From Idiomarina fontislapidosi (GTDB lineage Bacteria; Pseudomonadota; Gammaproteobacteria; Enterobacterales; Alteromonadaceae): a DNA stretch of 64,000 nucleotides. Below are positions 1,034-13,477 of this stretch, one piece after another. The notes beneath the pieces are model-generated. The model did not search any database, was not told the DNA's origin, and worked only from the letters and a program-made list of their open reading frames with translations. The position numbers and the translations under genes were made by a program. Numbering within the stretch: the stretch's first letter is position 1; each line of letters starts with the position of its first letter. Where the stretch lies: positions 1 through 64,000 of the forward strand of contig NZ_QJST01000006.1 in assembly GCF_003226255.1 (NCBI RefSeq), in the 5' to 3' direction.

Positions 1034-2902
1034 ATGTTCGAATATAAAAAAATCGCCTTAGCGGTGTCGGTGGTATTGATGACCACTGCGTGTTCTGACA
1101 ACACAAATACCAGCACTCAGTCGACTTCGGCTGAGCAGCAAACGGCGTCGGCTGAATCGGCTCAACAAGAAACACAACAAACCGAGTCTGAAAAGGCGAA
1201 TCAGCTGTTTGAAGATATCTTTATGGCGAATGTCATGCGCAGCCCGATGTATCAGTCTTACTTGGGTATTAAAGATGACCAAGATAAGTGGGACGACATC
1301 TCAGAGGAGCAGGCGCAAGAGGACTTGGCGCTCAACAAAAAGCATTTAGAACAAGTCAAAGCGATTGATGAATCGAAGCTCGATGAACAGACTAAAATCA
1401 GCTGGATGCTCATGAAGCAGCAGCTTGAAAATGATATTGCTGATTTTAAATGGCGTCATCATAACTATCCGGTTAACCAGATGTTTGGTTTGCACTCGAG
1501 CGTAGCTTCGTTGCTGATCAACCAGCATGGTATTAGCTCAGTGGACGACGCTGAGGATTACATCGCGCGTTTAAATGGTCTGCCGGCGCTGTTTGAACAG
1601 TTGGCTGAGAACCTCGAATTGCGTGCAGACAAAGGCATCATTGCGCCTAAGTTTGTGTACCCTTATGTGATTAGCGATAGCAAAAACATTATTACTGGTG
1701 CGCCGTTTGATGACGGCGAGGCAAGTGCGCTTTGGGCTGACTTTAATAAGAAGGTTGAAGGCTTAGAGATTTCGGATGAAGAGCGCGACCAGTTAATTGC
1801 TTCGGCTAAAACGGCGTTTTTAGAATCGGTGAAGCCAGCCTACGAAAATTTAATTGTTAAGCTGGAAGGTATTGAAGAGCAAGCGACGACCAAAGATGGC
1901 GCATGGAAGTTTCCTGATGGCGAGGCGTTCTTTAATAATGCCTTGCAACGCACGACAACAACGGATCTCACCGCAGATGAAATTCATGAAATTGGTTTGA
2001 GTGAAGTTGAGCGAATTCATGACGAGATGCGCGGTATTATTGAAAAGGTCGGTTTTGACGGCAGCTTGCAGGAGTTCTTCGTACACATGCGTAACAATGA
2101 GGACTTTATTTATCCGGATACGGAAGAAGGTCGTCAACGTTACTTAAGCGAGGCAAAAGCCATTATCGATGATATGCGCGGTCGCTTAGATGAGCTCTTT
2201 ATTACTAAGCCAAAAGCCGATCTCATTGTTAAAGCGGTTGAACCGTTCCGCGAGAAATCGGCCGGTAAAGCGTTTTATCAACAGCCTTCGATGGATGGCT
2301 CGCGTCCGGGTACTTACTACGCGAACTTGTACGACATGGGCTCGATGCCAACGTATCAGATGGAGGCATTGGCTTACCACGAGGGGATTCCAGGCCACCA
2401 CATGCAAATTGCTATTCAGCAAGAGCTTCAGGGGATTCCGAAGTTCCGTCGTTTTGGTCGCTATACCGCGTACAGCGAGGGCTGGGGCTTATACACTGAG
2501 AAACTACCGAAGGAAATCGGCCTGTATAAAGACCCATACTCTGACTTTGGTCGTCTAGCGATGGAGTTATGGCGTGCAGTGCGTTTGGTCGTAGATACAG
2601 GTATTCATGCGAAGCAATGGACGCGTGAAGAGGGTATCGATTTTTACGTAAACAACACGCCAAACGCGAAAGCGGATGCGGTGAAGATGGTTGAGCGTCA
2701 TATTGTGATGCCAGGTCAGGCGACAGCGTACAAGATCGGCATGAACAAGATCTTGGAACTGCGTGAAAAAGCGAAGACCGAGCTAGGCGACAAGTTCGAT
2801 ATCCGTGAGTTTCACGATCGTGTACTCGGTAATGGTCCGGTGCCATTGAACGTGCTTGAACAGTTCATCAATGATTATATTGAAGAGAAGAAAAACGCTT
2901 AA
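1034..2902 (+). CDS. DUF885 family lipoprotein, putative zinc metallopeptidase
   Basis: A 622-residue exported lipoprotein. The first 19 residues form a signal peptide ending in a lipobox (LMTTAC), with Cys20 as the lipidation site, followed by a Ser/Thr/Gln/Glu-rich linker to about residue 55. The rest matches the DUF885 family. HEGIPGHH at residues 449-456 contains an HExxxH-type zinc motif typical of the family, and a conserved-looking AYSEGWGLYTE block follows. It probably acts on peptides at the envelope, which fits a lifestyle based on amino-acid catabolism. The start is fixed by AAGGAG eight bases upstream. The exact substrate is unknown. Confidence 0.88.
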   Translation: MFEYKKIALAVSVVLMTTACSDNTNTSTQSTSAEQQTASAESAQQETQQTESEKANQLFEDIFMANVMRSPMYQSYLGIKDDQDKWDDISEEQAQEDLALNKKHLEQVKAIDESKLDEQTKISWMLMKQQLENDIADFKWRHHNYPVNQMFGLHSSVASLLINQHGISSVDDAEDYIARLNGLPALFEQLAENLELRADKGIIAPKFVYPYVISDSKNIITGAPFDDGEASALWADFNKKVEGLEISDEERDQLIASAKTAFLESVKPAYENLIVKLEGIEEQATTKDGAWKFPDGEAFFNNALQRTTTTDLTADEIHEIGLSEVERIHDEMRGIIEKVGFDGSLQEFFVHMRNNEDFIYPDTEEGRQRYLSEAKAIIDDMRGRLDELFITKPKADLIVKAVEPFREKSAGKAFYQQPSMDGSRPGTYYANLYDMGSMPTYQMEALAYHEGIPGHHMQIAIQQELQGIPKFRRFGRYTAYSEGWGLYTEKLPKEIGLYKDPYSDFGRLAMELWRAVRLVVDTGIHAKQWTREEGIDFYVNNTPNAKADAVKMVERHIVMPGQATAYKIGMNKILELREKAKTELGDKFDIREFHDRVLGNGPVPLNVLEQFINDYIEEKKNA

Positions 2903-6022: not shown

Positions 6023-7198
6023 TCACATCTCATCAAAGTAGCCGCGAATCTTCATTTTACCTTCTTGCATGGCTAATTTGCCTTGATACCAGACGTGGCT
6101 TAACGCCAGTGTATCGGGGCAGAGCAAGTTAAGATCAGCATCCTTGCCAACAGCGATTGTGCCTTTAGTGCTAAGTTTTAAACGCTGCGCCGCGTTTTGG
6201 CTAGCAGCCATCAATACCTGATCGACGTCAACACCGTCACGAATCGCCTCTTGCACTGACTCAAGTAAACTGACCGCTCTGCCCACCTTTAGGCCGCGTA
6301 GTTTTCCGTGGCTATCAAAATCAGGCAAACTGGCATTGGCGTCGGTGCTGAGACTAATTTGTGTGGCTTGTACACCTTCACTCAGTAATTGAGCTAAGCA
6401 TTTAGCTGCGGGAATCTCGCCCTCGGCAACTAATTCGGGGGTTGTCGAGCAGGTGAGATCGAGCATTAAACCGTGATTGGCGAGTTCAGCACCTTGTTCC
6501 ATCAATGATTGATGCCGGTTCATGTGGGTAGGGTAAAACTGGTTTAAGTCGACATCATGATCGCGGCAACACTGCTCGATGATATTGAGCTGACTCGCTT
6601 CATCACCTACATGTAAAAAGGTGATGCCAGCTTTGCCACTAATCAGTCCACCCACTTTGGCCTCACTTGCGACACGAGCGAGTTCTGCGGCATTGAGCTG
6701 TGAGCCTCGCTTATCAGCAATCGCGAGCTCTCCGATACCAATGAATTTATCGATTAGAATAATATCGTCGCGCACAGTTCCCGTGACTGTGCGCACAGGG
6801 TATTCGTATGAGCCGGTGTAACAATAGGTGCTCAGCCCAAGGTTGGATAAGCCTCGGGCATTGGCAAGCATATCGCTGAGAGAACGCGTAGAGGCGTCTG
6901 TCCCAAGTCCGGATACCATGGTAGAGATACCTGCTTGGATCGCATCGGTTATCGGCATCACCGGTGTACGGGTGTGAAAGCCGCCTTCTCCGCCGCCACC
7001 ATTGAAATGCGCGAGTGGATCGACAAAACCTGGCACTAACCAGCGTCCTTGAGCATCTATTTGGGTAACCGGTACAGCTCCAAATGAACCTTCGATCTGA
7101 GGTTCAATAGCGGCGATGCGTTTATCGGCTATTAGTACGTCACAGATGCCTAATTCTGATGGGCTCCATACGTGAGCGTTCTTTATCAACGTGAGCAT
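6023..7198 (-). CDS. iadA: Isoaspartyl dipeptidase (IadA-like), atypical metal site
   Basis: A 391-residue amidohydrolase of peptidase family M38, aligning end to end with E. coli IadA, which splits beta-aspartyl dipeptides. Substrate and catalytic residues are kept: GGGGE (Glu71), Tyr131, Arg164, PTHMNR (His225, Arg228), and STDANAS with Asp286; His196 is also kept. Two metal positions differ. The HxH motif reads D-P-L-A-H (Leu62 replaces the first His; codon at 7013-7015), and the carboxylated Lys of E. coli is replaced by Glu157. It is the last gene of the receptor-permease-dipeptidase operon, two bases after the permease. With a cyanophycinase next door, the likely substrate is beta-Asp-Arg. 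Glu can bridge metals in some relatives; loss of the His is harder to explain. Confidence 0.85.
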   Translation of the reverse strand: MLTLIKNAHVWSPSELGICDVLIADKRIAAIEPQIEGSFGAVPVTQIDAQGRWLVPGFVDPLAHFNGGGGEGGFHTRTPVMPITDAIQAGISTMVSGLGTDASTRSLSDMLANARGLSNLGLSTYCYTGSYEYPVRTVTGTVRDDIILIDKFIGIGELAIADKRGSQLNAAELARVASEAKVGGLISGKAGITFLHVGDEASQLNIIEQCCRDHDVDLNQFYPTHMNRHQSLMEQGAELANHGLMLDLTCSTTPELVAEGEIPAAKCLAQLLSEGVQATQISLSTDANASLPDFDSHGKLRGLKVGRAVSLLESVQEAIRDGVDVDQVLMAASQNAAQRLKLSTKGTIAVGKDADLNLLCPDTLALSHVWYQGKLAMQEGKMKIRGYFDEM

Positions 7199-7200
7199 GA

Positions 7201-8616
7201 TTAGTTAAATCCTATTGATACAGCGGTAATAACGGTGATGAGCGCCAGTGTCATTATGACCAGTTGGAAGCGCCAAATGATTTTAATCCACTCACTCCAG
7301 TCGAGTTTTACGGCACCTAAACAGCCGATTAATGAGGCTGACGTGGGAATGATGATGTTAGTTAATCCATCACCCAACTGAAAGGTGAGTACGGCGACTT
7401 GCCGGCTAACTTCGACCAGATCCGAGAGTGGCGCCATCAGTGGCATGGTAAGAGCCGCTTGACCCGAGCCAGACGCGATGAAGAAGTTAAATACTGACTG
7501 AAACAGCAGCATTAAGCTGGCGCTCGTTGCGGCAGAGGCATCACCAATGAGTTCACTGGCATGGTAAAGCAGAGTATTGAGCGTAGAGGCTTGGCTCGGG
7601 TCATCGCCACCTAATAGCAATACTAGACCTTTAGCAAATCCAACGATTAGAGCCGCTGGCAGCAGATCTTGTGAGCCCTGATTAAAGGCGCGAGCCACGC
7701 CATTGGCACTCAGACGTCCTGCAATAATGGCGATGATGCCGACGCAAATGCCAATAACAAAAAATTGTGCGGCAATTTCTGGGATATAGTAGGCGCGCGC
7801 GGTTACGCCCCAAATGACCCAAATTAAGCCGATAAAAAACACGGATAAAATCGCACTATCGGTTTTGCCAAACTTTGATTCGATTAACGCGGCCTCAGAC
7901 CGCGCTTGAGTATCTTTTGTGCGCTCAGCGTAGCGAAGCGTAAATATAAGCCCTACCAATGTGAAGATGAGCCAGGTGACCATGCGAAAGCTTGCCCCTG
8001 ACATCAATGGTACCTCGGCGATACCCTGTGCGATGGCAACGCTGAATGGATTCATCCATGACGTAGCAAAGCCAATTTGTGTTGCAACATAGGTAATTAA
8101 CACGGTTGTAGCGGCGTTATACCCGAGTGATCGCATCACCGGGTAGAGTACGAGGCAGAACGCGATGGCTTCTTCACCCATACCAAAGATAGCCCCCGCG
8201 AGGGAAAACATTAAAAACATCGTCACTAAAAACACGCGGTCAAAGCGTTGAGTTTTTTGTATTAAGTTAAGCACACCATGTTCGATAGCGGCTGTCTTTA
8301 GCACAATGCCAAAAGAACCACCAACGATTAAAATGAAGGCAATGACGCCAATTGCTGAGCCCCATTTAGTGCCCGAAACTAACCCTTCAAAAGCAACGTT
8401 TGCGAGACCGATTTCGCCCTTTTCAGCAAACAACGGAAGGTCTGTTTTCTCGCTTGTTTCATAACTAAAGCTGCCCGGTTCGATTGCTTGATTTTCGGGG
8501 TTTATCTGAAAACTCCCCGCAGGCACTAGCCATGCGGCTAGTGCTGCCAGTAAAGCGACGAAAAATAAGATGACCAAGGCATCGGGCATGGTCATCTTGA
8601 TACGACGGTTCGACAT
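7201..8616 (-). CDS. YfcC family permease, probable dipeptide or amino-acid carrier
   Basis: A 471-residue inner-membrane protein with about twelve hydrophobic helices. It matches the YfcC family (DcuC/ArsB-like carriers): start RIKMTMPDALVILFF, the LVPAGSF block at residues 30-36, and a GEEAIAF motif around 147. Family members have been linked to transport of arginine, other basic amino acids or dipeptides. It sits 11 bases after the TonB receptor and two bases before the isoaspartyl dipeptidase. The context suggests uptake of beta-Asp-Arg or of its products across the inner membrane, which is inference. Confidence 0.85.
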   Translation of the reverse strand: MSNRRIKMTMPDALVILFFVALLAALAAWLVPAGSFQINPENQAIEPGSFSYETSEKTDLPLFAEKGEIGLANVAFEGLVSGTKWGSAIGVIAFILIVGGSFGIVLKTAAIEHGVLNLIQKTQRFDRVFLVTMFLMFSLAGAIFGMGEEAIAFCLVLYPVMRSLGYNAATTVLITYVATQIGFATSWMNPFSVAIAQGIAEVPLMSGASFRMVTWLIFTLVGLIFTLRYAERTKDTQARSEAALIESKFGKTDSAILSVFFIGLIWVIWGVTARAYYIPEIAAQFFVIGICVGIIAIIAGRLSANGVARAFNQGSQDLLPAALIVGFAKGLVLLLGGDDPSQASTLNTLLYHASELIGDASAATSASLMLLFQSVFNFFIASGSGQAALTMPLMAPLSDLVEVSRQVAVLTFQLGDGLTNIIIPTSASLIGCLGAVKLDWSEWIKIIWRFQLVIMTLALITVITAVSIGFN

Positions 8617-8627
8617 AGTTTCGCCTA

Positions 8628-11213
8628 TTAAAAGCTAACGGTATAGCGTAAACCGACCTCACGTCCCATCCAGTCATGGATTGACGAGGCGTAGCCGTTA
8701 GTGGGTGATGAAGCATAAGGTGGCTCCTCATCCAACAAATTACTGACCGTTAATAATAGCTTGTGATTCTCCATGACTTGGTAACCAAAACTGGCGTTCC
8801 ATGTGAGCCATGAATCGACGGTATCGTTACCACCCCACTGAAAGTCGCCATCCCCCATACTGCTGACATAGTGACCGATCAGGCTGGCATCTATCGCGCC
8901 TTGATACCATTGAATGCCAAAGTCAGCGACAAAGTCGGGACGAGCGATTTCTGCGGCACCACTTAAGCGTCCTAGAAGATCTTCGGGCTCAGAGTCGGCA
9001 GTTGCCTTGCGCTCGTAGCTGAAGGTTTTGGTGGCGCTCACAAACAGCTTATACTGGCCCCAACGGTCGGTCTTTAGGTCGTAATCGGTGCTAATATCAA
9101 CGCCGTCAGTGGTTTGTTCGCCAACGTTAAAGTACCCGGTACGCATATAGAATATGTCGCCATCCGCATCAACAACACAGCCAAATGCACCATTCAGCGC
9201 TTCGATGCTGTTGACGACTGGCGCACTTCCATTCACACAGGCATCGAGCGTTGTATTCGCATCGATATCAACAATATCCTCGTGGTCATAGCGCCAATAG
9301 TCGGCAGTAAACTGCCAGTTGTCCGTGATATTCCACGATACGCCCGTGTTATACGCAGTGGAGTTTTCGGCTTTGAGATTTGGGTTACCAATGGTTTCTT
9401 GATCGAGTTCAAGTTCACCCAAGGCTGCGCCGTTATCGCCGCACAAACTGGCGTATTGCGAACCCGGTTCGCAGTCAACATAAGCTGCTGACAGTGATGT
9501 ACCTGCACCGAGCTGATTAAGCGATGGCGCTCTGAAACCGGTGCTCGCCGATGCTCTGAAAACGAGATCATCAGTTGCACGCCAGCGCACCGAGAGCTTC
9601 GGATTTACGTCGCCACCAAAGTCCGAGTAATGGTCATAGCGCAAGGCAAGGATAGTATCTATCGAGCTTGTGATAGGTACATGAAACTCACCATACACCG
9701 CATACTGATTACGATCGGCTTCGGCCTGACTTGCGCCGAGTGCGAAAACACCGTTGTTGGCGGCAATATCAGCAGGATTGTCGCTGATTTCCTCGGTACG
9801 GTATTCACCGCCGAATACAGACTTCACATAGCCAGCAGGCATTTCGAATAAGTCGCCGCTGAGGTTAAAGTCGATAGAAGCCAACGTCGATTCACCGCGG
9901 CGAGGTGCTAATGTGCGCAATGAAGCCAGTTGCTCTTCGCTATTATCGCGTCCTAGATTAAATGGATTGAACTGTCCCGCATTTGTCGCTGCTTCAACGG
10001 CCGCGACGGAATAAAATCCCGAGGTGTGTAAAATCTCATTCTCGGTTTTGCCGTAGGCTAAGGCTGTTTCCCACTGCCAATAACCGAGTTCACCACGCAA
10101 GCCTGTTAATACTCGATATGACTTGTCGGTGTAACTTTGAGTGCGTCTATCTGGGAAGCGAGAATCTACGTAAATTGGATCCGCGCTACCATCCTCTTGG
10201 TCTATTTCTTGTGCCCAAGCAGGAATCACCGATGAACCTGCCGGTACCGTTACGCTAAAGGCTGCGCCTGAATCATACGCATGGCCTTCGTTATGCTGAT
10301 ACATCGCTTCAGCAAAGAATTCTGTCATATCACCCAAGCGGTAGGTGTGGCTGACAGTCGCCCCCATATTATCGTAGTCGGGTTGAATCGCACGTTGGAT
10401 TACGTAGTCGTAATCGCAGCGTTCCCCCGCTAAAGCCTCTCCGCCGTTGCAATAAGGTTCGGCGTACTCGGTGCCGTCGATATCCACAAAAGTGTTGGAC
10501 TCATAAGTGACATCAATTGGTCTATCTGAATTGAATAATGCGTTTTGTTTTACCACGTCGAGAATGACAGTGGTGTTTGAGTTTTTGGTATTAAAGCCGC
10601 CGACATAGGTGGCGTTCACACGGCTAGCGTCTGAGCTTGCTGTGTCATCACCGTACATTAACGAGATTTCATGGCCCTCAAAATCATCACGTAAGATGAA
10701 GTTGATAACGCCGGCAATGGCATCAGAGCCGTAGATGCTTGATGCGCCGTCGGTAAGCACATCAACGCGCTCGATAGCAGCCATTGGAATATTGTTCACG
10801 TTAACAAATGAGTCTGAGCCATTGGCAAACGAACTGACGTTAACGCGACGACCGTTGACCAAGACCAGCGTTGAGCTGCTACCTAAGCCACGTAAACTCA
10901 CGCCGGCTGAACCGGCCGGGGCGCCATCGGCACCGCCGACGTTGCCATTTGTCGTGAATGTGCCTGCAGTGGCTGCCTGAGGCAGATCGCGTAGGAATGA
11001 GCCTATGGTCAAATGACCGCGGTCAATGATGTCTTCTTGACTGAACATTTGGACAGGGTTTGCACCCTCCATATCAACGCCTTTCAAACGCGAGCCAGTC
11101 ACTTCGATGGTTTCTAAATCTTGTTGTTCTGATTGCTGTGCCTGCTGCACAGCCGTAGCGACGGGTGATAGACAGAGTCCTGCACCGGCTAAGATTAAGC
11201 TCCACTTGGACAT
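8628..11213 (-). CDS. TonB-dependent outer-membrane receptor of the cyanophycin locus
   Basis: An 861-residue receptor. The signal peptide is at residues 1-21; a TonB-box-like segment (ETIEVTGS) is followed by the plug domain (about 45-170) with VLVNGRRVN and a long beta-barrel. The chain ends in RYTVSF, with the terminal Phe typical of barrel proteins. This subclass is common in marine proteobacteria that feed on peptides. It is the first gene of an operon with the YfcC permease and isoaspartyl dipeptidase, and it is divergent from a secreted cyanophycinase. The likely cargo is a cyanophycin fragment such as beta-Asp-Arg. AAGGAG precedes the start. Confidence 0.9.
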   Translation of the reverse strand: MSKWSLILAGAGLCLSPVATAVQQAQQSEQQDLETIEVTGSRLKGVDMEGANPVQMFSQEDIIDRGHLTIGSFLRDLPQAATAGTFTTNGNVGGADGAPAGSAGVSLRGLGSSSTLVLVNGRRVNVSSFANGSDSFVNVNNIPMAAIERVDVLTDGASSIYGSDAIAGVINFILRDDFEGHEISLMYGDDTASSDASRVNATYVGGFNTKNSNTTVILDVVKQNALFNSDRPIDVTYESNTFVDIDGTEYAEPYCNGGEALAGERCDYDYVIQRAIQPDYDNMGATVSHTYRLGDMTEFFAEAMYQHNEGHAYDSGAAFSVTVPAGSSVIPAWAQEIDQEDGSADPIYVDSRFPDRRTQSYTDKSYRVLTGLRGELGYWQWETALAYGKTENEILHTSGFYSVAAVEAATNAGQFNPFNLGRDNSEEQLASLRTLAPRRGESTLASIDFNLSGDLFEMPAGYVKSVFGGEYRTEEISDNPADIAANNGVFALGASQAEADRNQYAVYGEFHVPITSSIDTILALRYDHYSDFGGDVNPKLSVRWRATDDLVFRASASTGFRAPSLNQLGAGTSLSAAYVDCEPGSQYASLCGDNGAALGELELDQETIGNPNLKAENSTAYNTGVSWNITDNWQFTADYWRYDHEDIVDIDANTTLDACVNGSAPVVNSIEALNGAFGCVVDADGDIFYMRTGYFNVGEQTTDGVDISTDYDLKTDRWGQYKLFVSATKTFSYERKATADSEPEDLLGRLSGAAEIARPDFVADFGIQWYQGAIDASLIGHYVSSMGDGDFQWGGNDTVDSWLTWNASFGYQVMENHKLLLTVSNLLDEEPPYASSPTNGYASSIHDWMGREVGLRYTVSF

Positions 11214-11610
11214 AAGAATCTCCTTTGTGGTTTTAATTATTGTTTTAGCCTGCCTGTTAGGCAGAAGAAATTTATGTCACGAGACCTGTCGATTGGACAG
11301 ACTGCGGCTCATGAATAAGTTTACAGGGACCTTGAGTTAAGGTCAGATACGGAGGAGGTGATTTGACACACGCTCGCCGCAGTAACCGCTGGGGCTACCG
11401 TGGCCTACTCGTCAAACCATTCTGATAGGTAGAAACTATCGTAGTGATAGCTTGCTAGTTGATATGCTTTCTTTAACATAGTATTTATTATTTAGTCTTT
11501 TGTCGCAGTTGACGTTTACAGGGATAGCACCCGCAATCAGCGCTGTCAATTTTGCTAATTGTCATAGTGACTGTTCCAGAACGAGCTCATTATCTTATCG
11601 AGGCTGTGAC
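11214..11610. promoter_or_regulatory. Divergent control region between receptor operon and cyanophycinase
   Basis: About 400 bases without a convincing gene, lying between the receptor start (minus strand) and the cyanophycinase start (plus strand), so both promoters must lie here. It is rich in inverted repeats: CTGTC/GACAG (11286-11300), GACCTT/AAGGTC (11328-11344), ACTGCGGC (11301-11308) with GCCGCAGT (11376-11383), and TTTGAC (11362-11367) with GTCAAA (11411-11416). They could form a folded leader RNA or serve as operators. I could not match it to a known riboswitch. No regulator gene sits beside it. Confidence 0.5.
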
Positions 11611-12786
11611 ATGAAGTTATCCAAGGCTTGCTTAAATTATCTCATAATCACTACGCTGACTGCGCTTTCTCTAAGTGGTTATGCAAGTGAAAAAAACGAC
11701 GATTATCGCCATCTTCTACTGGCGGGTGGGGCGTTAAAAATTTGCTCCAATTATAGCCCTTCCAACTGCAAAGAAACCGACTGGATCGATACTCTTAGCA
11801 ACAATAACCTGAAAGATGGCCGCGAGGTTGTGCGTGTTGATTTATCTAAAAGCGCGCAGTCGGTGGCGATATTTCAGCGTTTTATTACGATGGCGAAACA
11901 AACACATAATGCAGGTGAACAACCACTTATTTTATTTTCAACATCGGCTTCTGTTAACCCTTACGATGCCGTTATTTTTTACCAATCGGTCTTTCAACAA
12001 CTCGGCGCAAAAAGTATGTGGTTGCCGTTAGATGTTGCTGTGGTAAAAGCGCGTTCGGAGGGGCGCTGTGAAGATTTAAGTCAGGTACAGTCAGAACTAC
12101 TGAACAACAACGATCTTGATGAACGCTACCCCGAGTTATATCAGCAACAGGTCAATTTCTGTAAAAGTCCCCAACAAACCACTGATTTATTAGCGCAAGC
12201 TAATGGCCTATTTTTTAATGGCGGCGATCAAAATTTGACGCGCCAAGCTTGGGTTCGAGCTGATAATAGTCCTTCACATGCCTTAACTTTATTATCCGAA
12301 CGCGTAGCGAACCGACAAACCGTTGTTGGTGGTACGAGTGCAGGAACCGCTGTACAAAGTGCAGGGCCTATGATCTCGAATGGCAGTAGTAAAGCAGCCA
12401 TGCAGCAAGGGAGTTTTGCAGTAGAGCCTCCCCCGCGCGATTGTGATTTAAATAACCGTTGTCCGGCGGGTTTAAGTGTCGACTCACTGACTTACAATCC
12501 GGCCGGAGGCACCGGGTTATTTCGTTTTGGTACGCTCGATACGCATTTTTCTGAGCGTAGCCGGCAAGCGCGCTTGATGAGTTTAGCTGCGGATACATCG
12601 ACTGCTTTAGCGGTGGGTGTCGATGAAACGACCGCGTTGGTCGTTAATTTGGACAATGGGGCGTTTGATGTCATCGGCGAACATGGTGTGTTTATTGTGC
12701 GTGACGCAACAGTACAAGACGATGGCGTCGCCGCGCAGGTGTCTTATCTTTGGTCGGGTGCACATGGCGACTTTAACATGCGCTAG
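11611..12786 (+). CDS. cphE: Secreted cyanophycinase (CphE-like)
   Basis: A 391-residue exported serine hydrolase of the S51-like cyanophycinase family, which cuts cyanophycin to beta-Asp-Arg dipeptides. From the Met at 11611 it has a signal peptide (about residues 1-26, GYAS/E as cleavage site). Family motifs follow: FFNGGDQ (202-207), GGTSAG with nucleophile Ser243, THFSERSR with His312, and GVDETTA with Glu339. An insertion with two Cys (PPRDCDLNNRC) sits between the Ser and His motifs, as in extracellular members. An upstream ATG at 11500 would hide the signal peptide; the GAGG ten bases before 11611 supports the later start. It is divergent from the receptor-permease-dipeptidase operon. 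Confidence 0.9.
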   Translation: MKLSKACLNYLIITTLTALSLSGYASEKNDDYRHLLLAGGALKICSNYSPSNCKETDWIDTLSNNNLKDGREVVRVDLSKSAQSVAIFQRFITMAKQTHNAGEQPLILFSTSASVNPYDAVIFYQSVFQQLGAKSMWLPLDVAVVKARSEGRCEDLSQVQSELLNNNDLDERYPELYQQQVNFCKSPQQTTDLLAQANGLFFNGGDQNLTRQAWVRADNSPSHALTLLSERVANRQTVVGGTSAGTAVQSAGPMISNGSSKAAMQQGSFAVEPPPRDCDLNNRCPAGLSVDSLTYNPAGGTGLFRFGTLDTHFSERSRQARLMSLAADTSTALAVGVDETTALVVNLDNGAFDVIGEHGVFIVRDATVQDDGVAAQVSYLWSGAHGDFNMR

Positions 12787-12822
12787 CGAGCGGTTCGTTG
12801 CTTGTTACGGTTGAACAGTTGA

Positions 12823-12839
12823 GCGGGCGTAATGCCCGC
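12823..12839. terminator. Hairpin between cyanophycinase and upp
   Basis: GCGGGC (12823-12828) pairs with GCCCGC (12834-12839) over a 5-base loop between two convergent genes. There is no clear T run on either side, so it is a weak terminator at best. Confidence 0.4.
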
Positions 12840-12847
12840 ATGGCTAA

Positions 12848-13477
12848 TCAACGCGTACCAAAAATCTTATCACCCGCATCACCCAAGCCTGGGATGATAT
12901 AGCCGTGTTCGTTGAGCTTTTCGTCCAGCGAGGCGGTAAAAATGCGTACGTCGGGATGCTGTGCCAGCACTGCTTCAACACCCTCGGGGGCGGCAACTAA
13001 AACGAGTACGCGAATGTCCTTACAACCTTGTTGTTTAAGCATATCGAGAGTGGCGATCATACTACCGCCGGTGGCGAGCATTGGGTCAATGACCAGGGCA
13101 ATGCGCTGGTCGATGTCGTTAACGAATTTATCGAAATAGCTGACGGGCTCGAGCGTTTCCTCGTTGCGATATAAGCCGACAACACTGACTTTGGCACTGG
13201 GAATAAGTGTGGTAACCCCATCCAGCATACCCATGCCAGCCCGCAGAATCGGCACCACGGTCACCTTTTTACCGCGCAGTTGTTCCACTTCGATGGGTGT
13301 TTCGTTCCAACCCTCAATCGTATGGGATTCCAGCATAAAGTCGCTGGTGGCTTCGTAGGTAAGTAACGTACTTATTTCATTGGCGAGTTCGCGAAAACTT
13401 TTAGTTGAAATACCGTGCTTGCGCATTAACCCGAGTTTGTGTTGCACAAGCGGGTGCTTAATAACCTGTAATCCCAT
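12848..13477 (-). CDS. upp: Uracil phosphoribosyltransferase
   Basis: A 209-residue protein with the normal Upp length when started at the Met at 13477, which has AAGGGG just upstream; a longer reading from 13516 adds 13 residues without support. It makes UMP from uracil and PRPP in pyrimidine salvage. Clear blocks are [15 protein letters not shown] at the N-terminus, [11 protein letters not shown], the PRPP-binding [12 protein letters not shown], and [14 protein letters not shown] at the C-terminus, where the uracil is bound. It is a cytosolic enzyme, transcribed alone. Confidence 0.96.

Follow-up and report, generated by a model that had tools for sequence, protein, structure and literature searches.

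The question raised here is whether a divergent four-gene locus of Idiomarina fontislapidosi serves for feeding on cyanophycin, a nitrogen store of cyanobacteria, and by which carriers the breakdown product would then enter the cell. The window analysed is a stretch of 64,000 nucleotides (contig NZ_QJST01000006.1, positions 1 to 64,000). An earlier sequence-only reading had placed at 6023-12786 a secreted cyanophycinase, facing an operon for a TonB-dependent receptor, a YfcC-type permease and an isoaspartyl dipeptidase (IadA), and had proposed foraging on the extracellular polymer. The four genes were indeed found there, three on the minus strand facing a plus-strand gene for an S51 protein of the CphE type (Table 1), in an Idiomarina-type genome of 2.86 Mb and 45 contigs. 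That observation was right and the proposed function is likely: taken as a whole, the locus is in all probability best explained as a cyanophycin scavenging locus. The present analysis adds a leader open reading frame (ORF), the shortened state of the S51 protein and an L-x-H form of the dipeptidase.

Conservation of the gene set and absence of cphA

Gene order was read in the regions around the YfcC genes of 147 related genomes, in which YfcC was counted at 420 bits or more (n=35, including that of genome G017, which is in two lower-scoring pieces). Genomes are labelled G and loci L, G000 being the window's own genome. The expectation that the genes stay together was borne out, as 31 of the 35 YfcC genes adjoin CphE. 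Among these 31 loci the TonB receptor lies between the two in 28, IadA stands beside YfcC in 29, and the full divergent four-gene layout was observed in 26. Exceptions include a set without receptor (L060), two sets with co-directional genes (L071, L072) and one with a split receptor (L064). The 31 loci are spread over 29 genomes, all of which carry IadA over cut-off, compared with 45 of the 147 overall. Two dissimilar receptor types occupy the receptor place, with 57-98% or about 29-37% identity to the window receptor in the best segment; at L053 (G062:C6) both types are present, one flanking each side of CphE. At L047 (G017) YfcC and IadA are each split between frames, and CphE and the leader ORF are intact. 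Next to the unlinked YfcC relative L077, the neighbour scanned is a sodium:solute symporter.

In a family-level sample of 395 genomes, long CphE was detected in 199 and YfcC in 123 at the thresholds applied. At least 108 of the 133 YfcC genes listed have a CphE gene, from a list of 150, at a distance of no more than 10 kb, with room for a receptor in 85 of these pairs. Among 369 genomes sampled evenly across the class, 3 carry long CphE, the host included, indicating that the gene is rare beyond this family and its close surroundings.

Absence of cyanophycin synthetase, claimed before for the window, extends to the host genome assembly, in which the best cphA match reached 105.8 bits, the cut-off being 850. 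The same holds for the relatives: 28 of the 29 set-bearing genomes are without cphA over cut-off, a gene detected in 10 of the 147 relatives. Both results support foraging rather than recycling.

The S51 protein

The S51 protein likely starts at ATG 11611, giving 391 residues, instead of the TTG at 11500 of the ORF list. Numbered from this ATG, the Ser243, His312 and Glu339 named earlier fall exactly on the triad positions, and the N-terminus is by inspection a Sec signal peptide, as had been claimed. The pocket of CphB and CphE is made of Gln, Asp, Gln (Thr in CphE) and three Arg in addition to the Ser-His-Glu triad, according to the part of the source available (PMC3235067). All nine residues of the CphE form are kept (Q207, S243, D310, T311, H312, R316, R318, R321 and E339; QSDTHRRRE). 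A Foldseek search with an AlphaFold2 model gave cyanophycinase or pseudo-CphB chains as its seven top matches. The protein is 97% identical to its counterpart in the Idiomarinaceae metagenome-assembled genome CPC14, found by genome scan.

Other properties of the protein weigh against a cyanophycinase. The score with TIGR02069 (cyanophycinase) was 93.9 bits (E 1e-26), below the cut-off of 126.6, and that with the Pfam S51 profile was 21 bits, below 23.9. Compared with its long homologues (511-661 residues among those scored, mostly 550-650), the window protein is missing some 80-100 residues behind position 62 and a further 100 or so at the C-terminal end. The AlphaFold2 model, made from 7 alignment rows, is poor (predicted local distance difference test score, pLDDT, 55), and dipeptidase E structures appear at Foldseek ranks 8 and 10 (E 1.3e-8 and 5.8e-8), with one other peptidase also close behind the cyanophycinase chains. 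At this pLDDT the model geometry was set aside, and the Foldseek ranking alone was used. The aligned S51 core is retained in the shortened protein, and six homologues score 66-110 bits with TIGR02069, all below its cut-off too. We therefore classify the protein as CphE-type by its residues and do not claim membership of TIGR02069.

Active-site integrity and linkage to YfcC

The nine residues were scored in 136 CphE genes. Round one covered 31 linked and 26 unlinked genes, and the second 20 genes listed as unlinked and 60 of 82 further linked ones. Five loci (L147, L149, L150, L151, L158) were moved from unlinked to linked after region reading, their YfcC having been missed in the search; L160 (contig end), L003 (a duplicate of L046) and CphE below the family-list cut were left out. 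All 96 linked genes had the full signature, compared with 11 of the 40 unlinked ones. On a tree built without the nine signature columns, 12 independent pairs lie on supported branches; intactness tracks linkage in a mean of 7.2 of them and the reverse never occurs (sign test on the enlarged set, median p 0.016, range 0.008-0.031). The same test was not significant (median p 0.125) on the 57 CphE rows of round one alone. The contrast of 96/96 with 11/40 suggests that, wherever uptake of its products is possible, the enzyme reliably retains its catalytic ability.

The same counts bear on the substrate. A locus for another beta-aspartyl polymer, or for isoaspartyl peptides of damaged protein, would agree with the profile scores under the cyanophycinase cut-off, and the title of PMC10206079 terms isoaspartyl dipeptidases promiscuous. 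With the triad and the six published pocket positions present in their CphE form in all 96 linked genes scored, however, a substrate other than cyanophycin is quite improbable.

Unlinked CphE genes have constant neighbours in the Idiomarina genomes read. The host's own unlinked copy (L079) is degenerate, with the signature AGDSENRRK; its frame (10755-12452 of L079, G000:C18) is open, making it a candidate exported pseudoenzyme. Degenerate signatures in open frames were likewise observed at L081, L083, L113, L115-L123, L126, L128 and L130-L132, and at L145, L146, L148, L153, L155, L156, L159 and L161-L164. At L126 the sole deviation is at Q207 and the triad is kept. The ratio of nonsynonymous to synonymous substitution rates (dN/dS) was 0.018-0.081 in degenerate clades A-C, similar to intact orphans (0.035-0.060), and 0.05-0.22 in the other degenerate groups where the synonymous rate (dS) was usable; linked genes of one genus gave 0.035-0.145. 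Because dN/dS is low in the measurable pairs, the degenerate unlinked genes probably encode exported, non-catalytic proteins under purifying selection. They would form a group of cyanophycinase-derived pseudoenzymes, selected for some other job.

The dipeptidase

In the window IadA the H-x-H metal motif is replaced by L62-x-H64, so that one ligand His is lost, and all the remaining metal and substrate positions tested by alignment are kept. By inspection the protein has no signal peptide and is cytosolic. The L-x-H form was detected in every one of the 28 set-linked IadAs that could be scored, the 29th being too short, and in none of the eight IadAs beside cphA (seven) or an intracellular-type cyanophycinase (L099, at a contig end). 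Among the other scorable IadAs it was present in six of ten, an eleventh being too short. H-x-H was seen in all 5 solved IadA sequences with an alignment listed, of 9 found. Our guess is that the L-x-H form has a one-metal site. Three of the L-x-H genes outside the set, at L087, L089 and L090, have one common gene order.

The proposed pathway

The exported CphE-type protein, to judge from its residues and family, would cut the cyanophycin of other cells to beta-Asp-Arg. The TonB receptor would carry oligomers or the dipeptide over the outer membrane, and YfcC, the proposed beta-Asp-Arg carrier by its genomic linkage, would move the dipeptide on into the cytosol, perhaps with a basic amino acid going the other way. 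Cytosolic IadA, a family member with an atypical metal site, would then split it into Asp and Arg. Since dipeptides should pass porins, an oligomer is the likelier substrate of the receptor.

Several findings are at odds with such a pathway: the lost ligand His of IadA; two of the 31 sets (L057, L063) without IadA beside YfcC; a gap between CphE and YfcC too small for a receptor in 23 of the at least 108 family-level pairs listed; and the intact signature of 11 of 40 unlinked CphE genes, by which activity is not strictly operon-dependent. A distant YfcC-like gene (30%) lies close to one of these 11, L154.

Where the polymer is cut may also differ from the scheme above. The receptor could import chains or oligomers for CphE to act on in the periplasm, only the dipeptide crossing the inner membrane. 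CphE carries a Sec signal only, a TonB receptor is better suited to cargo larger than a dipeptide, and a receptor is present in 28 of the 31 sets. Some sets are without a linked receptor, however, the host genome has the type II secretion protein GspD over cut-off, and the characterised Pseudomonas CphE enzymes are extracellular in the part of the source available (PMC3235067). Digestion in the periplasm is a serious possibility, short of probable.

For the inner membrane, a role of YfcC as an arginine/ornithine or Asp exchanger for the products, with beta-Asp-Arg entering via another carrier, seems unlikely. The NCBIfam name of its family NF008611, putative basic amino acid antiporter, speaks for exchange. 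So does L087, the one scanned of the three loci with a common gene order, where the L-x-H IadA adjoins an ATP-binding cassette (ABC) transporter ATPase and a binding protein that comes nearest to the Lys/Arg/Orn subfamily, with a score under the cut-off of that model. But the dipeptide must cross the inner membrane because IadA looks cytosolic, and YfcC adjoins CphE even where receptor or IadA is lacking. In addition, the unlinked YfcC relatives L076 and L078 adjoin AstE/AspA-type deacylases, again a carrier beside a hydrolase.

A conserved leader ORF upstream of the operon

An unexpectedly conserved block was found in the alignment of the divergent intergenic stretch, and it proved to be an ORF of 75 nt on the strand of the import operon. 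Using a profile of this leader on the 700 nt upstream of CphE (500 nt where the region was shorter), matches were obtained at 87 of the 96 linked CphE loci and at none of the 40 unlinked ones. In all nine linked loci without it, CphE and YfcC are on the same strand. For 85 leaders the ORF is intact, exactly 24 codons long and in every case opened by ATG. M1, Y11, L18, S19, E20 and W21 are invariant; Leu18 is written with all six codons and Ser19 with TCN, once AGT, and the stop is TAG or TAA. Of 1500 sampled pairs, 383 were usable in frame and gave a median dN/dS of 0.18; the medians out of frame were 1.06 and 1.31. This synonymous codon variety and the low in-frame dN/dS show that the leader is coding. 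No match to it was found in NCBIfam, and in Pfam there was one at E 0.056, below cut-off. By inspection no clear Shine-Dalgarno sequence is present in the 20 nt before most leaders, which speaks against strong translation.

The first 45 nt past the leader stop of the window fold into a hairpin at -17.6 kcal/mol. Over 82 unique sequences the mean for this stretch was -13.5 kcal/mol, versus -8.9 for shuffles, with z < -1 in 73%, and no clear excess stability was detected in 45-nt windows starting 45, 90 and 130 nt further on. Alignment-based covariation was given up, as the post-stop part is unalignable between genera, and stability against shuffles alone is claimed. From 35 to 95 nt past the stop, 77 of the 84 loci have an excess of C over G (median C/G 1.75), compared with 52% of 437 control leaders (median 1.08); the likeness of this stretch to a Rho utilization (rut) site is one of base composition only. 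An intrinsic terminator as the general mechanism after the leader was rejected, terminator-like sites being found in 18 of 85 cases only. An Rfam scan of window 11150-11680 gave a single chance match (E 7.3), nothing usable.

A possible cyanophycin regulon

A degenerate DNA pattern for E-W-(F/W)-(D/N)-E-stop was run on the 147 genomes, with the reversed pattern as control. It matched at 38 places in 29 genomes, versus 5 for the control. At the set itself 27 matches were found, those of G101 and G144 being missed as their leaders end in N. Eight of the 11 others lie 47-166 nt before a second S51 gene (motifs GGDQ, GTSAG and DTHFxxRDRMGR), at L226, L227, L228, L230, L231, L233, L234 and L236. 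One precedes a relocated TonB receptor in G050, whose set is without receptor, and the remaining two look like chance. The second S51 protein has a PPC domain in the four scanned and scores 63-77 bits with TIGR02069 in the six scanned, below cut-off. The short ORFs before it have only the C-terminus in common with the leader, that of L230 is without ATG start, and hairpin and C-excess are not clear after them.

We propose, with slightly less than even confidence, that the leader acts as a nascent peptide sensing beta-Asp-Arg, Arg or Asp, and that ORFs sharing its C-terminus define a cyanophycin regulon. Such a reading is suggested because the conserved C-terminal end at the stop precedes functionally related genes. 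With ligand present, the ribosome would stall at the conserved LSEW(F/W)(D/N)E-stop end, and the stalled ribosome would keep the downstream hairpin and rut-like stretch from shutting the operon off. The import operon would thus be under attenuation by a breakdown product, and the regulon would comprise the receptor operon, the relocated receptor and the second secreted S51 enzyme, each behind a matching short ORF.

The strong amino-acid conservation of the 24-codon ORF, and its presence even without a receptor (L060), would also fit a working small protein, for instance a partner of YfcC. We hold this to be doubtful, as the short ORFs that precede the second S51 gene share nothing but the C-terminus with the leader, a hairpin directly follows the stop codon, and the peptide is not membrane-like by inspection.

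Site and divergence of the cassette

The interval from nnrS to upp measures about 420 bp in G009, and window 6031-12849 is absent. At the same site G018 carries about 6.6 kb of other DNA, and G013 the set and further genes; in G004 and G017 the set sits instead at the orphan (unlinked CphE) site. CphE of G000 and G013 is unusually close (dS 0.079; dN/dS 0.157 over 386 codons, or 0.259 when the unlike last codons are included). Recent transfer of the whole cassette between the two found no support, the dS of IadA, YfcC and receptor (0.42-0.66) being within that of the flanks (0.32-1.70). An out-of-frame trhP row was left out of this comparison. Compared with L141 (G013), window 10601-12600 is 95-98% identical per 200-nt bin and the rest of the set 77-99%; this part is possibly a recombined segment, the last CphE codons differing from G013. 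On the cassette flank, outside the set, window 1034-2902 encodes a DUF885 lipoprotein-like protein (Pfam 644.6 bits).

Table 1. Features of the locus, by position in the window
Feature	Positions	Strand	Evidence or remark
IadA-type isoaspartyl dipeptidase	6023..7198	-	TIGR01975 401.8 bits (above cut-off 331.25); metal-site residue alignment
YfcC-type inner-membrane permease, DcuC family	7201..8616	-	NF008611 628.8 bits (above cut-off 500); CphE linkage in relatives
TonB-dependent receptor, proposed outer-membrane carrier	8628..11213	-	PF00593 and PF07715, both over cut-off
C-rich, G-poor stretch past hairpin, rut-like composition, 35-95 nt from leader stop	11310..11369	-	
Predicted hairpin, immediately 3' of leader stop codon	11376..11404	-	Fold stability vs shuffles
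Leader ORF, 24 codons, MLKKAYQLASYHYDSFYLSEWFDE	11405..11479	-	Heads receptor-YfcC-IadA operon; stop 191 nt before receptor
S51 CphE-type cyanophycinase-like protein, short form, putatively exported	11611..12786	+	Profile, residues, Foldseek
Cassette extent relative to cassette-free relative G009	6031..12849	.	Comparison of nnrS-upp interval

Significance and comparison with known systems

If the assignment is true, the locus provides a defined candidate for each of the two membrane crossings, outer and inner, in the scavenging of cyanophycin, a flow of nitrogen from cyanobacteria to heterotrophs. The leader, if the sensor proposal is true, would add a new ligand-sensing peptide, one serving a catabolic regulon, and offer a means of identifying the genes that belong to that regulon.

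This kind of locus is already known. The part of PMC10206079 available describes 52 RefSeq genomes with cyanophycinase and dipeptidase and no cphA1, the genes being clustered in 45, often with amino acid transporters. It also cites the cyanophycin utilization locus of strain L21-Spi-D4 (Ben Hania et al., as cited in PMC10206079). The window is of the same type, with cyanophycinase, isoaspartyl dipeptidase and transporter clustered and no cphA. The available parts of two further sources describe a secreted putative cyanophycinase in Pseudoalteromonas tunicata (PMC2536512) and a cyanophycinase gene in Thalassotalea with proposed use of the extracellular polymer (PMC7564069). What looks new is the leader, the tie of the active site to the operon, and the subtype of IadA, no literature search having been aimed at L-x-H; among the open-access literature matches listed, none dealt with a leader of this kind or with pseudoenzymes derived from cyanophycinase, and absence is not claimed.

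The L21-Spi-D4 locus shares the clustering of cyanophycinase, iadA and transporter and the scavenging role; as far as it is described in the available part of PMC10206079, the window locus differs by its TonB receptor, YfcC, divergent layout, L-x-H IadA and leader ORF. In Citromicrobium JLT1363 a TonB receptor near cyanophycinase is likewise predicted to take up a cyanophycin-derived substrate; the available part of that account deals with receptor and cyanophycinase only, with no permease, dipeptidase or leader mentioned (PMC3400609). The extracellular CphE of Pseudomonas resembles the window protein in Sec signal, triad, pocket residues and the Thr before the catalytic His; the likeness was drawn through the residue positions published in the available part of PMC3235067, and the protein here has 391 residues. 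Solved IadAs (e.g. 8dqn, 1onw) have the family profile and the other tested metal and substrate residues in common with the window IadA, in which the first His of H-x-H is Leu. The nearest model for the leader is TnaC of the tryptophanase operon, a leader of 24 residues with a rut-like stretch past its stop. The window leader has the same length and, in base composition, a similar stretch past the stop; its sequence is another one, and a hairpin follows its stop codon.

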